From a virus: DNA of 22,843 bases. The translations under genes and the position numbers were made by a program. Positions 1,756-22,786 of the stretch are shown in pieces. Location of the stretch: IMG/VR virus record IMGVR_UViG_3300032073_000274, positions 1 to 22,843 of that record, one strand, 5' to 3'. The first letter of the stretch is position 1. The number at the start of each line of letters is the position of its first letter. Below the pieces are notes generated by a model, which saw nothing but the letters and a program-made list of their open reading frames with translations, searched no databases and was not told the DNA's origin.

Positions 1756-2976
1756 ATGGGCCTACTAGATACTATTAGAAGTATATTTAAAGGGAAAGAG
1801 AAAAGAAATGGATTTTATGAGGCTATGTCCTCAGTAAATGGAAATAATGCAGGAGTAGCAGTATCTGATGAAACTGCTTTAAATTTTACTGCAGTATGGG
1901 CTGCTATAAGAATACTATCTGAATCAGTTGCTCAGCTTCCTCTTTCTATATATGAATCAGATAAGCTAGGTAATAAAAGTCAGGCCTATAATCATCAGCT
2001 CTATAATTTAATTCATAGGAAGCCTAATGATAATATGACTACTTACACTTTTATTCAGAAGTGTATGCTAGATCTATTACTTAGAGGAAATTCTTTTGTA
2101 TATATTAATAGAAATAGATCAGGCAGGCCTACTGAGCTACTTCCTTTAGATGTTACTAAAGTAAAATTAGTAGAAAATGATGGAGCTATATATTATGAGC
2201 TTCAGGAAGGAGGAGTAGTAGATAGCTATGATATACTTCATTTCAAAGTAATGAGCAGAGATGGGCTTATAGGTATGAGCCCTATAGATGTAGGAGCTTC
2301 TGCTATTGGATATGGAATAGCTTTAGAAAGATATGGAAATTCTTTCTTTTCTAATGGAGCAAAAGTATCAGGCATACTTTCTACTGATAGGCATCTATCA
2401 GATGAGGCTATCAATAGATTAAGAGTATCCTTTAAAGAGAATTATTCTAGTATTAAAGATGCTAATAAAACTATGGTACTAGAGGAAGGGCTACAATTTA
2501 AGCAGATTAGCCTTTCAAATGAAGCCTCTCAATTCCTAAAAAGCAGGGAATTTTCTATAAGTGAGATCTGTAGATTATTCAATTTGCCTCCTCACTTATT
2601 AAGAGATCTTACAAAATCTAGCTTTAATAATATATCAGAGCAAAGTAGAGAATTTGTGCAGTATTCTTTAATGCCTTATATAGTAATGATGGAATCTGAG
2701 ATGAATTGCAAGCTTTTTAGATCTACTGAAGTTGGAAAGATTACTACTAAATTTGTAGTAAATGCTCTGCTCAGAGGTACTCCTAAAGATAGATCTGAAT
2801 ATTATAGAACTATGCTAAATATAGGAGCTATGAGTATTGATGAGATAAGACAATATGAGGAGCTGCCTACTATAGAAGGAGGAGAAAATCACTTTATGCA
2901 GTTGAATATGAGTACTTTAGATAATATAATTAAAGGAGGTACTTTAATGAATAATGATACTGATGCCGATTCCTAA
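1756..2976 (+). CDS. Portal protein, HK97 family
   Basis: The portal forms the ring at the unique head vertex through which DNA passes and to which the terminase and connector bind. The 406-residue length is typical of the HK97-type Phage_portal family. Recognisable stretches are AVWAAIRILSESVAQLPLSIY near residue 50, HQLYNLIHRKPN near 80 and LRGNSFVYINR near 108. Further on come LHFKVMSRDGLIGMSP near 165 and SISEICRLFNLPPHLL near 270, all characteristic of this family. The start is separated by 46 bases from the preceding gene. The 3' end overlaps the next gene by about 20 bases, consistent with translational coupling. The acidic C-terminal tail (NNDTDADS) is probably flexible. Confidence 0.95.
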   Translation: MGLLDTIRSIFKGKEKRNGFYEAMSSVNGNNAGVAVSDETALNFTAVWAAIRILSESVAQLPLSIYESDKLGNKSQAYNHQLYNLIHRKPNDNMTTYTFIQKCMLDLLLRGNSFVYINRNRSGRPTELLPLDVTKVKLVENDGAIYYELQEGGVVDSYDILHFKVMSRDGLIGMSPIDVGASAIGYGIALERYGNSFFSNGAKVSGILSTDRHLSDEAINRLRVSFKENYSSIKDANKTMVLEEGLQFKQISLSNEASQFLKSREFSISEICRLFNLPPHLLRDLTKSSFNNISEQSREFVQYSLMPYIVMMESEMNCKLFRSTEVGKITTKFVVNALLRGTPKDRSEYYRTMLNIGAMSIDEIRQYEELPTIEGGENHFMQLNMSTLDNIIKGGTLMNNDTDADS

Positions 2977-4420
2977 GCCTAATATAGCAGAATCTAAAGA
3001 GGAATTTTTAGATAGATGTATGATAGATCCTACTATGGTAGCAGAGTATGATGAAAAGCAGAGATTTGCTATATGTGAATCTCAATTAGAAAGAAATATA
3101 AAAATAGTATCAGGATCTCCATGCTCAGGAAAGAATACATATATAGAAAGAAATAAAAAAGAAGGAGATATAGTATGGGATTTTGATAAAATACATTCTG
3201 CTTTAACAGGATCAGAATCTCATAATCATATAGAGAAAGTTAGAAAATATGTTTTTTCTATGAGAAAACAATTTTATTCAGATATAAAAAATGAAAAGGA
3301 GATAAGAGTATGGATCATAAATTCATCTCCTTTAAAAGAAGTAAGGCAAAACTTAGCAAAAGAATTAAATGCTGAAATTATATTTTTAAGTAGATCTAAA
3401 GATGAATGCTTAGAAGTTGCTAAAAATGAAAGGCCTAAAGAATGGGAAGGATATATAAATTCTTATTTTGAAAGATTAGAAACTCCTACTGATGAGGAGG
3501 AAATTAAAATAATAGAAGTAAATACTATGGAAAATATTAAAAAGAGGCATATACTAGAAATTAAAGAGGATGAAAAAACAATTACTCTCGTTTATTCTAA
3601 AGATCCTGATGCAGTTACTGAAGCCGAATCTGAGGAAGTGGTGGAGGTGGATGAAGTACAGGAGGAGGAGATAGATAGAGATCATATAGAAGGGCATGTA
3701 TCAGATGAGGAGGAAATTTTAGAGGAAATAGATGAGGAGGTAGAGGATGAGCTAGAGGAATCTCCTGAAAATACTTATAGTAGATCTATGGAGAAAGTAG
3801 ATGTATGGGATAAAAAACATACTCAGGAAACTAGATTTTTTGAGATAGAAAGTAGGTTAGATAAAAAAGAGGGCAGAGATGTAGTAGTAGGGCATGCTGC
3901 AGTATTTAATTCTCTTTCTGAGGATCTTGGAGGATTTAGAGAGAAAATTATGCCTAATGCTTTTGATGATGTATTAGATAATGATGTAAGAGCTTATTTT
4001 AATCACGATCCTAATTATTTATTAGGGAGAGTATCTGCAGGAACTTTAAGGCTAGCAGTAGATGATAAAGGATTGAAGTATGAGCTAGATATTCCTAATA
4101 CTACTGCAGGCAGAGATCTAAAAGAAAATTTAAAAAATGGAAATATTACTCAGAGCTCTTTTGCTTTTACTTTAGGAAAGGATGGAGATTCTTGGGAAAG
4201 ATCTGAGGATGGATCTGATCTTAGAATTATAAATAAGGTAGATAGATTATATGATGTATCTCCTGTAAGCCTTCCTGCTTATCCTAGTGCTGATAATTTA
4301 GCTTTAGCAGTAAGATCTAATTTTATGGATAAAGAAAATAAAAGAAAAGAGGATGAAAAGAATTATGAATTGAATACATTATTAAACTTAAAAATTAATT
4401 TACTAAAAAGAAAAAAATGA
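2954..4420 (+). CDS. Leader + P-loop kinase-like + HK97 (S78) prohead protease fusion
   Basis: Three modules occupy one 488-residue chain. Residues 4-46 (MPIPKPN...ESKEEFLDRCM...KQRFAIC) are the leader often seen on phage prohead proteases. Residues 49-190 form a P-loop nucleotide kinase-like domain: GSPCSGKNT at 54-62, VWDFDKIH at 74-81 and a lid-like basic stretch at 145-161. Residues about 222-272 are a strongly acidic linker. Residues about 290-455 are the S78 protease, with likely catalytic His351 (FNHDPNYLLGR), Ser401/402 (NITQSSFAF) and Asp434 (LYDVSPV). The protease matures the capsid and removes scaffold. The kinase-like part has no assigned role. Met4 (base 2963) fits the family leader better than Met1; the longer start is reported because I cannot exclude it. 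The stop overlaps the capsid start as ATGA. Confidence 0.9.
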   Translation: MILMPIPKPNIAESKEEFLDRCMIDPTMVAEYDEKQRFAICESQLERNIKIVSGSPCSGKNTYIERNKKEGDIVWDFDKIHSALTGSESHNHIEKVRKYVFSMRKQFYSDIKNEKEIRVWIINSSPLKEVRQNLAKELNAEIIFLSRSKDECLEVAKNERPKEWEGYINSYFERLETPTDEEEIKIIEVNTMENIKKRHILEIKEDEKTITLVYSKDPDAVTEAESEEVVEVDEVQEEEIDRDHIEGHVSDEEEILEEIDEEVEDELEESPENTYSRSMEKVDVWDKKHTQETRFFEIESRLDKKEGRDVVVGHAAVFNSLSEDLGGFREKIMPNAFDDVLDNDVRAYFNHDPNYLLGRVSAGTLRLAVDDKGLKYELDIPNTTAGRDLKENLKNGNITQSSFAFTLGKDGDSWERSEDGSDLRIINKVDRLYDVSPVSLPAYPSADNLALAVRSNFMDKENKRKEDEKNYELNTLLNLKINLLKRKK

Positions 4421-5634
4421 AAAAATCAATAGAACTTAAGGAAACTCGTTCAGGTTTAGTAGATACTTTAGAAGCAATTAAAACTACTGCTGAAGGAGAA
4501 TCTAGAAATTTGAATGAAGCTGAGGCTACTGAAGTAGATACTACTTTAGCTTCAATAGATGAATTAGATGTAAAAATAGAAAGAGCAGAAAAAATGGAGA
4601 AAGAATTAAGAACTGCAGCTTCAGTATCAGGAGTAAAAATAACTCCTCAAGCTGATAAAGATCTTAATAAGTTTACTTTTCAGGGAGCTTGCAGAGCAGC
4701 TTATACAGGTAAAGTAGATGGGATCTATAAAGAGATGCATGAGGAGGCAGTAAATGAATCTAGATATACAGGAAATAGTGTGAAAGGATATGGGATTCCT
4801 TCATCTATTTTAACTAGAGCATGGAGTACTTCATCTAGTAATGCTGAGGAAGTAATGAGCTTTACTGATCAATTAGAAAAAAATCTAGTTTTATCTAGTG
4901 CAGGAGCTAATACTTATTTCGGTATTAATGATATGAAATTCCCTGTATTTTCTGAAATAGCTTCTACTTGGGTATCTGAGGATGGAACTTCAGGAGCTGC
5001 TGCTTCTGCAGGATCTTTATCATCAGTAACTTTAACTCCTAAGAAATTAATCTCAGTAGTAAATATGACTGCAGAGAGTATGATGCAAAATCCTTCTTTA
5101 GAGGGAGCTCTTACTAGAAATATGGCTGCTCAAGTAGCTTCTGCTTTAGAGTATGCTTTACTTGATACAGGAGATGTATCTGATGCTCCTACTTCTATCT
5201 TTGCTGATGGTACTGCAGGCCCTACTACTATTACTGCTGCTGATTGGGTAGAGATGGAAACTGATGCTCTAGCTTTAGGAGTAAATAGAGAGGGATCTAG
5301 ATTAGCTTACTTATTAGATATGGATGCTTATAAGAGTGTAAAAACTTTAGCTCAGGTAGCTTCAGTATCTCCTTTATGGGATAATGCTGATAGGAGATTA
5401 AATGGATACTATGCTTTTCAAAGTGGTAATGTAGCTGCTTCAGGTACTGCTAATAAAGCTCATGCTTTATTTGGAGATTTCTCTAAAGTACATATCGCAC
5501 AATTTGGAGGCTTAGATATTTTATTTGATCCTTATACTAATGCAGCTTCAGGCTTGCCTAGAATGATTGTTACTTCTTTAGTTGATGGAGATGCTACGCA
5601 AAATTCATCTTTTATTAAATTAATTGAGGCATAA
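4417..5634 (+). CDS. Major capsid protein, HK97 fold
   Basis: The 405-residue HK97-type capsid subunit forms the shell. Residues 1 to about 70 are charged and helical (LKETRSGLVDTLEAIK, IDELDVKIERAEKMEKELR). They resemble the scaffolding delta domain that the upstream protease removes, and cleavage probably falls around residues 70-95. The remaining part shows family features: FTDQLEKNLVLSSAGANTYF, FPVFSEIASTWVSEDG near 165-195 (E-loop to spine region), LTPKKLISVVNMTAESMMQNP near 205-225 and the C-terminal P-domain with FGDFSKVHIAQFGGLDILFDPYT. It overlaps the protease stop (ATGA) and is followed by a strong terminator, which fits high expression. Assignment is firm from fold signatures and synteny. 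Confidence 0.95.
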   Translation: MKKSIELKETRSGLVDTLEAIKTTAEGESRNLNEAEATEVDTTLASIDELDVKIERAEKMEKELRTAASVSGVKITPQADKDLNKFTFQGACRAAYTGKVDGIYKEMHEEAVNESRYTGNSVKGYGIPSSILTRAWSTSSSNAEEVMSFTDQLEKNLVLSSAGANTYFGINDMKFPVFSEIASTWVSEDGTSGAAASAGSLSSVTLTPKKLISVVNMTAESMMQNPSLEGALTRNMAAQVASALEYALLDTGDVSDAPTSIFADGTAGPTTITAADWVEMETDALALGVNREGSRLAYLLDMDAYKSVKTLAQVASVSPLWDNADRRLNGYYAFQSGNVAASGTANKAHALFGDFSKVHIAQFGGLDILFDPYTNAASGLPRMIVTSLVDGDATQNSSFIKLIEA

Positions 5635-8229: not shown

Positions 8230-8754
8230 GTGGCTTTAAATGGAATAATAAATGGAGCTCAGATAGCAATATATCTAGATGCAGAAGTATCAGTATTATC
8301 TACTTCTTTATCTTGGAATATTGAGCATAAAACTAGATCTACTACTTGCAGAGAAGGGAATGCATGGAGTACTGCAGCTCCTTTTATGAGAGCATGGAGT
8401 GCAGATGTAGAAAATTTATTAGCTTTTAGGAATGCAGATGGGCAGCTTTATAATTCTCAAGCAGGGCAGATTTCAATAGATACAATAATAAAAGAGTATA
8501 TTATACTGCAAAAGCCTGTAAATATCAAGATAAAGCCTAATCAAAATTTAGCTAATGGGAATAAGCAGTGGGTAGGGAGTGCCTATGTTACAAGTGTATC
8601 TGCAGATACTCCTAATGAGGATAATAGTACTTTTTCAGTAAGCTTAAAAGGAGCAGGATTGCTTAGATTAACTCAAACAGGCCCTATACAACATTGGGAT
8701 GATGATATGCATCATCCTTTAGATTTTAATGATTTAGTACTATCATTCCCTTAA
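8230..8754 (+). CDS. Tail tube protein paralogue 1 (GTG start)
   Basis: A 174-residue protein of the phage tail-tube (TP901-1/major tail protein) type. It opens GIINGAQIAIYLDAEVSVLSTSLSWNIEHKTRSTTC, the typical first strands, and ends VTSVSADTPNEDNSTFSVSLKGAGLL, the closing signature of the family. The second copy at 8824-9255 has an almost matching segment, so the two are paralogues. Translation starts with GTG, four bases after the previous stop, without the A-rich leader that precedes copy 2, which predicts weaker expression. It carries a C-terminal extension (residues 152-174, HWDDDMHHPLDFND) that copy 2 lacks. It may be the minor tube or tail-terminal ring component. Confidence 0.82.
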   Translation: MALNGIINGAQIAIYLDAEVSVLSTSLSWNIEHKTRSTTCREGNAWSTAAPFMRAWSADVENLLAFRNADGQLYNSQAGQISIDTIIKEYIILQKPVNIKIKPNQNLANGNKQWVGSAYVTSVSADTPNEDNSTFSVSLKGAGLLRLTQTGPIQHWDDDMHHPLDFNDLVLSFP

Positions 8755-8823: not shown

Positions 8824-9255
8824 ATGGCTACAAATAATGTAATAAATGGAACAAAATTTGGAGTATATGCAGCAGGCACTAAGATTGCCTATGCTACTTC
8901 AGCAAGTATAAGTATGAATCATAATCTAAGAGATACCTCTACTAAAGATTCAGGAGGATGGAGAGATCAATTAGAAGGGCAGAGAGATTGGGAAGTATCA
9001 GTAGAAGGAATGCTCATCTTTGTAGATGGATCAGGAGGAGCTATAGCAGGATTAACTATGGATGAATTATATTCTACTTATATAGCTACTAGAACTGAAT
9101 TTACTTTAAAATTTTCTACTGATGTATCAGGAGATTATGAGTGGAGTGGGCAGGCTTTCTTAACTTCGTTAAGTGCTGATACTCCTAATGAGGATTCAAG
9201 TACATGGAGTGGATCTTTTTCAGGATCAGGAGTATTAACTCAGGCAGCAGTATAA
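8824..9255 (+). CDS. Major tail tube protein (paralogue 2)
   Basis: A 143-residue tail-tube subunit. The N-terminus is NVINGTKFGVYAAGTKIAYATSASISMNHNLRDTS and the central part is SGGWRDQLEGQRDWEVSVEGML, a typical tube-protein core reading roughly 's..W.......kdW.is.eg'. The closing signature is LTSLSADTPNEDSSTWSGSFSGSG near residues 112-135. It begins after the A-tract leader ATAGAAAAAAAATG in a 69-base gap and is followed by a strong terminator. Both features suit the abundant tube subunit. It is related to the gene at 8230-8754 over most of its length. Assignment is firm; which of the two is the main tube subunit is inferred from expression signals. Confidence 0.88.
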   Translation: MATNNVINGTKFGVYAAGTKIAYATSASISMNHNLRDTSTKDSGGWRDQLEGQRDWEVSVEGMLIFVDGSGGAIAGLTMDELYSTYIATRTEFTLKFSTDVSGDYEWSGQAFLTSLSADTPNEDSSTWSGSFSGSGVLTQAAV

Positions 9256-22100: not shown

Positions 22101-22436
22101 ATGAGAGCAATAAGTAAAAAGCAGAGTAAGATTAATAGAGAGCTAAAGAAAGTATATAATTATATAGCAGAAACTAGAGGGCACTATTGCTCAGGATGTG
22201 GCCGATCAGATGTACCTTTATCTCATTCTCACTATATAGCTAGAAGCAGAAGGAAGGATCTAGAAACTGATCCTGATAATATTACTTATCACTGCCTAAG
22301 CATAGGGGAGAGGAAAGGTTGTCATTCTTTATGGGAGGGGGGGGTAGCTGATAAACAAAAGCTTCTAGATTATCCTAAAGCTATGGAATATATATTAGAG
22401 AAAGATACTGAGCTCTATTTCTTAATTACTGAATAA
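22101..22436 (+). CDS. Zinc-binding NinG-like/HNH-type nuclease, putative
   Basis: A 111-residue protein with a zinc-binding CSGC (Cys30, Cys33), SHSHYI (His42, His44) and CHSLWE (Cys74, His75), plus Cys65. It also has DPDNITYHC. The order 'C..C ... SH.H ... DP.Ni...C......CH..WE' is the layout of NinG/Rap-like and HNH-like recombination endonucleases in phages, which resolve branched DNA. A run of eight G's lies at 22337-22344, encoding Gly-Gly after WE, and the frame is intact across it. The stop overlaps the next start by one base (TAATG). Fold assignment is moderate; metal-binding residues are clear. Confidence 0.75.
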   Translation: MRAISKKQSKINRELKKVYNYIAETRGHYCSGCGRSDVPLSHSHYIARSRRKDLETDPDNITYHCLSIGERKGCHSLWEGGVADKQKLLDYPKAMEYILEKDTELYFLITE

Positions 22437-22786
22437 TGCCTAAGATGCCTCCTCCTAAAGATCGCCCATGGATTCCTAAAAGAAAAAAGAAAGTAGATCA
22501 TCTCAATTATAATAGGAGTAGATCTGCAGGAGAAATGTTAAGCTTTTATCAGAGTAAGCAGTGGAGATCTTTAAGAAATTATAAGATTCAGATGCAGCCT
22601 TTATGTGAGCACTGCGAAAAAAAAGGATTAGTAGAATCAGCTAGAGAGATAGATCATATAGTAGCTATAAAAGATGGAGGAGAAAGATTAAGCCTTAGGA
22701 ATCTGCAGAGCCTTTGTAGATCTTGTCATTCTAGGAAGTCAGTACAGGAAAGAGAAGCAAGAAAACATATAAAGAAGTATTACTAA
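22436..22786 (+). CDS. HNH endonuclease, packaging-associated
   Basis: A 116-residue HNH enzyme. The pattern is FYQSKQWRSLRNYK (37-50), CEHC (57-60), REIDHIVAIKDGG (70-82, with Asp73-His74 as the catalytic pair), NLQSLCRSCHSRKS (89-102, with Asn89, Cys94, Cys97, His98). This arrangement is typical of the HNH proteins encoded just before the terminase genes in HK97-type phages, which in related phages are needed for genome cutting at packaging. The N-terminus is Pro/Lys-rich (MPKMPPPKDRPWIPKRKKK). It follows the NinG-like gene with a one-base overlap. Confidence 0.93.
   Translation: MPKMPPPKDRPWIPKRKKKVDHLNYNRSRSAGEMLSFYQSKQWRSLRNYKIQMQPLCEHCEKKGLVESAREIDHIVAIKDGGERLSLRNLQSLCRSCHSRKSVQEREARKHIKKYY

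Follow-up and report, generated by a model that had tools for sequence, protein, structure and literature searches.

The window analysed here, 22,843 nucleotides from a virus (IMG/VR record IMGVR_UViG_3300032073_000274), carries on its plus strand an open reading frame (positions 2954..4420) that, as read from the sequence, is uninterrupted for 488 codons. The frame lies between a portal protein gene (1756..2976, plus strand), which overlaps its start, and the gene for an HK97-type major capsid protein (4417..5634, plus strand), which overlaps its stop; both neighbours were assigned by sequence and position. From its N-terminus the encoded protein has a small helical leader (residues 4-45) and a P-loop kinase domain (46-177), from which an acidic linker of variable sequence leads to a Peptidase S78 domain (300-447). 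Translation probably begins at Met4 (ATG at 2963, MPIPKPN) and not at Met1, since close relatives start with MPIP and a related locus, L011 (L numbers denote the other loci compared), has ATA at the Met1 codon. A preliminary description of this sequence had placed a P-loop domain between the leader and the S78 domain, and PHROG matches, a confident AlphaFold2 fold and a Pfam match to S78 bear this out. It had also considered that an assembly error might have joined two genes. This is excluded, because a second IMG/VR contig encodes a protein 100% identical over all 488 residues and because relatives from other metagenomes, at 62-79% identity, keep the order of leader, P-loop, linker and S78 without stops. 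A candidate for the separate start near residue 190, raised in the same context, is indeed present (Met192, see below), but it does not make the fusion an artefact. At the other side of the portal gene, the terminase large subunit gene (81-1493) is truncated at the window start; locus L001 has its start, as well as a small-terminase-like ORF of 160 aa (487-969).

The S78 domain (3851..4294, plus strand) matches PF04586 in Pfam over residues 300-447 (E 2.6e-45) and TIGR01543 with 101.5 bits (cutoff 59), and its candidate catalytic residues, His351 in FNHDP and Ser402 in SSFAF, align in relatives. As judged by family match, catalytic residues and the position of the gene between portal and capsid genes, the protease domain is that of an intact HK97-type prohead protease. 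The segment that joins it to the kinase measures about 120 residues, and not the roughly 50 ascribed at first to the acidic linker; a predicted beta hairpin (residues 197-214) is followed by an acidic stretch (about 215-298; 3596..3847, plus strand) that AlphaFold2 predicts to be disordered, at residues 220-298 of the model. The suggestion that this linker could act as a scaffold was dropped as unsupported: it is predicted to be disordered, it is the least conserved part of the protein and it also occurs in relatives without the kinase. At the other end of the protein, the leader (leader module A, MPIPKP..EFLDRCM.D.TM..EYDEKQR.AICESQ; 2963..3088, plus strand) is predicted to form three short helices, which are compact at residues 15-45 in the AlphaFold2 model. 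Neither Pfam nor PHROG holds a family for the leader itself, and we found no convincing match to it in cultured phages, its relatives coming solely from IMG/VR. There, the 43-residue leader (two Cys, RCM.D.TM..EY...QR.A.C) recurs in other settings (L248, L253, L265, L284 and others): it can be a stand-alone ORF of 46-52 aa or the N-terminal part of an S49 protease, an S78 protease or a Mu F-like protein, and in L288 it ends a portal protein (residues 726-766, C-terminal).

The boundaries of the kinase domain (3089..3484, plus strand) rest on PHROG matches, AlphaFold2, structure comparison and conservation. A Pfam search returned no model covering the domain, whereas residues 43-174 matched PHROG 4581 (E 4e-30), 9644 (E 1e-16) and 2071 (E 4e-7), named terminase small subunit, head maturation protease and ATPase, respectively. 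From 49 aligned sequences, AlphaFold2 predicted a P-loop fold with a pLDDT of 92-97 over residues 46-176, and the solved structures nearest to it were polynucleotide kinases and O-phosphoseryl-tRNA kinase (PSTK). The first three Foldseek matches were all to the kinase of Clostridium thermocellum Pnkp, which a sequence profile of 40 members also picked up (E 7e-4). With VIA-align, the Z score was 14.6 for PSTK, while T4 Pnkp reached 13.4 and C. thermocellum Pnkp 12.8 (12.4-13.4 across the T4 and C. thermocellum structures, slightly under PSTK). Because Pnkp scores near PSTK, with gluconate kinase and others coming next, the fold does not fix the substrate. The domain shares with the Pnkp kinases of T4 and C. 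thermocellum (1ltq, 2ia5, 4gp6, 4mde) the fold, the Walker A motif and an Asp after the second strand, but only 15-20% identity. The conserved positions, all on the plus strand, include the Walker A motif GSPCSGKNT (residues 54-62, with K60, N61 and T62; 3113..3139), a DxD motif (D76-F77-D78; 3179..3187), Arg104 (3263..3265) and Arg160, a candidate LID arginine (3431..3433). Five positions (G54, P56, G59, K60, D76) do not vary across 40 diverse members, and five more (T62, D78, R104, R160, I168) are kept in at least 90% of them. No one-to-one match was established between K60, D76/D78, R104 and R160 of the window and K15, D35, R38 and R126 of T4 Pnkp.

Six of seven IMG/VR scans and one bacterial-genome scan together gave 227 non-redundant P-loop domains of this kind. 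An HNH-like partner was found for 92 of them, an S78 protease for 71, a ClpP-type head protease for 6, the C-terminus of a portal for 3 and a scaffold for 1, counts that come from loci selected by similarity and are not frequencies in nature. The remaining domains stand alone, with 17 directly adjoining S78 and/or portal genes, and where the flanks permit, almost all kinase loci adjoin terminase, portal or protease genes. Fusion to S78 proteases occurs in dozens of lineages. Because the partners are non-homologous, the kinase must have been joined to them by several separate fusion events; a kinase tree of 153 tips showed 13 partner changes, most of its forks being unsupported and its columns too few for a firm event count. 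In the preliminary description such ATPases were separate small genes in other phages. Separate genes do exist, among them the actinophage 'polynucleotide kinase' and orf61 of Lactobacillus phage A2, but a search for the same domain order in other phages showed the fusion to be recurrent rather than unique, and joining to ClpP-type protease, scaffold, portal or HNH adds to it. The actinophage and A2 proteins belong with PHROG 4581 to the P-loop family of the window kinase; in PHROG 4581 members, however, the kinase is fused to or lies beside an HNH at the terminase end, whereas in the window it is fused to the head protease. In M. abscessus prophi52-1 the gene order is HNH, kinase, TerS and TerL.

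In cultured phages, protease fusions were found in Corynebacterium phages phi673 and phi674 (gp04) and in Staphylococcus phage vB_SauS_308. Like the window protein, phi673/phi674 gp04 and PHROG 9644 have an N-terminal P-loop kinase followed by S78 and are encoded between portal and capsid genes, but phi673 gp04 is without the leader module or a long acidic linker and has GKSQ where the window has GKNT. The phi673 and phi674 fusions are annotated as proteases only, and the paper on these genomes makes no mention of a kinase (PMC6132909). Among the loci compared, L110, L105 and L113 encode lambda-type portals with the same kinase at the C-terminus, where Pfam gives an AAA_33 hit.

Within the clade of the window, the region between portal and protease is a variable slot. 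It holds leader and kinase in the window and in L002-L006; leader A is replaced by another leader (KCxNGKYRWG), together with the kinase, in L007-L010 and L034, and by that leader with the kinase and about 320 extra residues in L023-L032. The leader is present alone in L011, L015, L017, L020 and L021, and neither leader nor kinase in L013, L014, L016 and L019. In L239 (2501-3535) the kinase has been naturally deleted between short flanking direct repeats, leader and protease staying in frame; the scar joint, ERNIKIIEVKTM, merges two short repeats that flank the kinase in other members. No compensating second copy of the kinase was found in the partial records of relatives without the P-loop (L011, L013, L015, L017, L020 and L021). 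Given these close relatives without it, the absence of a second copy from their records and the deletion scar, the kinase is dispensable in some phages.

In L022, a sister phage, the kinase slot is taken by a HAD domain. DxDGT and the other HAD motifs are kept across 34 relatives, and the predicted fold has a pLDDT of 85. Among HAD-type structures this fold is closest to the T4 Pnkp phosphatase domain (Z 10.7, 19% identity); universal stress proteins score similarly. Since the slot is occupied by the kinase in some phages and by a domain resembling the T4 Pnkp phosphatase in L022, different phages have in it folds resembling both halves of Pnkp. The leader, the HAD domain and a third module, the RGGT-type domain, are also combined with proteases of the XkdF and S49 types, with a portal and with a Mu F-like protein. 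The HAD domain is found with leader A, leader B or the RGGT-type domain in L442-L447, L448-L476, L478, L482, L484 and L489, and HAD-bearing head proteases, of the S78 and XkdF types (Peptidase_S78_2), reach 992 aa. The RGGT domain itself (RGGT..VG..RA....RM.SF..RH..DK...GYPS.GRIA..LWGGDAG; phrog_2859), at residues about 185-400 in L023-L032 and present in L275 and L288, is widespread, partly overlaps DUF5824 and is shuffled among portal and protease proteins.

The codon for Met192 (3527..3529, plus strand) is a candidate internal start for the protease. The unfused proteases of L013, L014, L016 and L019 begin at Met192, a residue present in 23/23 clade members. Outside this clade, 44 kinase-protease or kinase-scaffold fusions (75% clusters) were compared; an ATG lies at the junction in 41 of them, where Met frequency predicts 21.1. 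In this comparison the better Met was taken where a junction had two, and sequences trimmed at the junction Met had seeded the S78 profile. At junction ATGs the mean Shine-Dalgarno (SD) energy was -7.7 kcal/mol, whereas the remaining in-frame Mets of the same proteins averaged -3.3 kcal/mol (Wilcoxon p 2e-8), with 88% of the former and 23% of the latter at -5 or below. In contrast, HNH-kinase fusions, in which the kinase is downstream and which served as a control, gave no signal (19/78 with a junction ATG, 28.2 expected). These two comparisons replaced a synonymous-shuffle test of the junction SDs, which was set aside as uninformative because the junction amino acids (KG, EKG, GGE) themselves encode an SD. 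In Staphylococcus phage vB_SauS_308 the junction carries AGAGGAGGTGAGGAAAATG, and AGAGGAGGTGAGGAAA immediately precedes the junction ATG. Most kinase-protease fusion genes probably make both the fusion and the free protease.

The gene starts of the window are rich in A and T and pair more weakly with the SD than background ATGs do (means of -1.1 and -3.0 kcal/mol), suggesting that the host probably initiates without an SD; the SD test is therefore inapplicable to Met192. A start-context matrix scored Met192 between real starts and background, and synonymous conservation just before it was not exceptional. As this phage does not use SD sites, what suggests internal initiation in the window itself is the conservation of Met192. 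A precedent is the nested protease-scaffold gene C/Nu3 of lambda, in which an internal start yields the scaffold. There, two in-frame products come from one head gene through an internal start, as is proposed here, but the internal product of lambda is the scaffold, whereas the candidate here is the protease itself.

The reading that we favour, with a probability of about 45%, is that the gene encodes a packaging-linked Pnkp-type kinase carried on an HK97-type prohead protease and acting in or at the procapsid. The kinase would be active and would phosphorylate 5'-OH ends of nucleic acid. Fusion to the protease would put it in or at the procapsid during DNA packaging, a location inside the prohead being plausible, and there it would heal ends or nicks in step with the HNH endonuclease and the terminase. 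Because the protease would also be made alone from the internal start (Met192 in the window, by comparison with the relatives), only some protease copies would bear the kinase, which self-cleavage in the disordered linker would release during maturation. The fold, the conservation of the active-site residues, the selection on the domain, its repeated joining to or proximity to genes for heads and packaging and the Pnkp-phosphatase-like domain in the slot of L022 speak for this reading; against it stand the similar scores of PSTK and Pnkp and the close relatives that do without the kinase.

The same fusion might instead serve to carry cargo, which is the chief alternative. The protease would then be the carrier and processing domain of a polyvalent-type protein, and the kinase, phosphatase or other module would be packaged and injected with the DNA and act in the next host, for example by repairing tRNA or DNA cut by host defences. 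The kinase and phosphatase pair of Pnkp is the RNA-repair set of T4, and the modules found in the slot (kinase, HAD, RGGT-type domain and two leaders) vary as expected of effectors. Moreover, polyvalent proteins are likewise multidomain, and their assemblin-like (prohead-type) peptidase, where they have one, is stated to be invariably the C-terminal domain (Iyer et al., 2017, PMC5512222); leader, kinase, linker and C-terminal S78, with variants bearing HAD or RGGT-type domains, make up such an architecture, known here from genes. The proteins described here differ in having two to four small modules and in a Pnkp-type kinase and an internal protease start, both absent from that account. However, a kinase attached to an HNH beside the terminase, or to the C-terminus of a portal, is a better fit to a role in packaging, and none of the window genes was recognised as encoding an RNA ligase. 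We regard a cargo function as possible but rather unlikely.

Alternatively, translation might read through from one gene into the next. The kinase-like protein and the protease would then function as separate molecules, and the fusion itself would be incidental or regulatory, as in translational coupling. The strong internal start at the junction would suit such an arrangement, as would the separate kinase and S78 genes that lie 8 nt apart in L133 and its relatives. Yet the fused form is the commoner, with 41 S78 clusters against 4 in which the genes are adjacent and separate (75% level, in a sample chosen by kinase similarity), and since the fused genes have no stop codon after the kinase, a free kinase would need proteolysis. 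Read-through is a doubtful explanation, to which we would give little weight.

In the Walker A motif of the window, Asn61 stands where Ser or Thr normally binds magnesium, and the preliminary description suggested that nucleotide may be bound without normal turnover or that the function may have shifted to Thr62. On the first of these views the P-loop would be a non-enzymatic nucleotide-binding or assembly module. GKNT is typical of the window clade, but the Asn recurs in four HNH-linked kinases, and Thr62, the DxD motif and the Arg residues are conserved. Adenylate kinases have Gly at this position and are nevertheless active. Moreover, dN/dS is 0.12-0.35 for the kinase part, 0.09-0.22 for S78 and, where computable, 0.21-0.33 for the linker, values that place the kinase domain under purifying selection. 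As GKNT recurs in the HNH-linked kinases, we read Asn61 as a natural variant and have dropped it as the mark of a dead enzyme; a non-enzymatic module seems very improbable. Least credible to us is a kinase that shares the fold only and acts on small molecules (nucleoside, sugar or tRNA-linked seryl type), a view in keeping with the top Z score of PSTK and the high rank of gluconate kinases but at odds with the best Foldseek and profile matches, which are to Pnkp, with the genetic linkage to DNA-packaging genes and with the replacement of the kinase in its slot by a Pnkp-phosphatase-like domain.

Packaging is usually described as the work of terminase, portal, protease and scaffold alone. If a repair-type kinase is repeatedly attached to non-homologous head proteases, scaffold, portal and HNH, these phages may have in common a need to process ends while the head is being filled or, alternatively, a way of getting enzymes into the virion. 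The recurrence of the fusion, in this marine phage and in others, hints at an unstudied repair step in virus assembly. More broadly, and as a conjecture that we think has the odds against it, tailed phages might share an unrecognised nucleic-acid end-healing step in or at the procapsid, the kinase or phosphatase being brought there as a fusion with any head protein available (S78 protease, ClpP-type protease, scaffold, portal or packaging HNH) while an internal start keeps most of the protease kinase-free. Kinase-protease fusions are already on record, unremarked, in PHROG 9644 and GenBank, and a C-terminal prohead-type protease in multidomain proteins is also known. In the open-access literature, to which the search was confined, we found no description of the kinase-protease fusion, of the Pnkp identity and recurrent fusion to unrelated head proteins, of a slot in which kinase and phosphatase replace each other, or of a conserved start for the protease inside the fusion gene. 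The internal start would also mean that annotation pipelines hide two products under the single label 'prohead protease'.

Elsewhere in the window, two adjacent and similar tail-tube-like genes (8230-8754 and 8824-9255) look by eye like tandem paralogues, and at the far end (22101-22786) two HNH-like genes overlap end to end.
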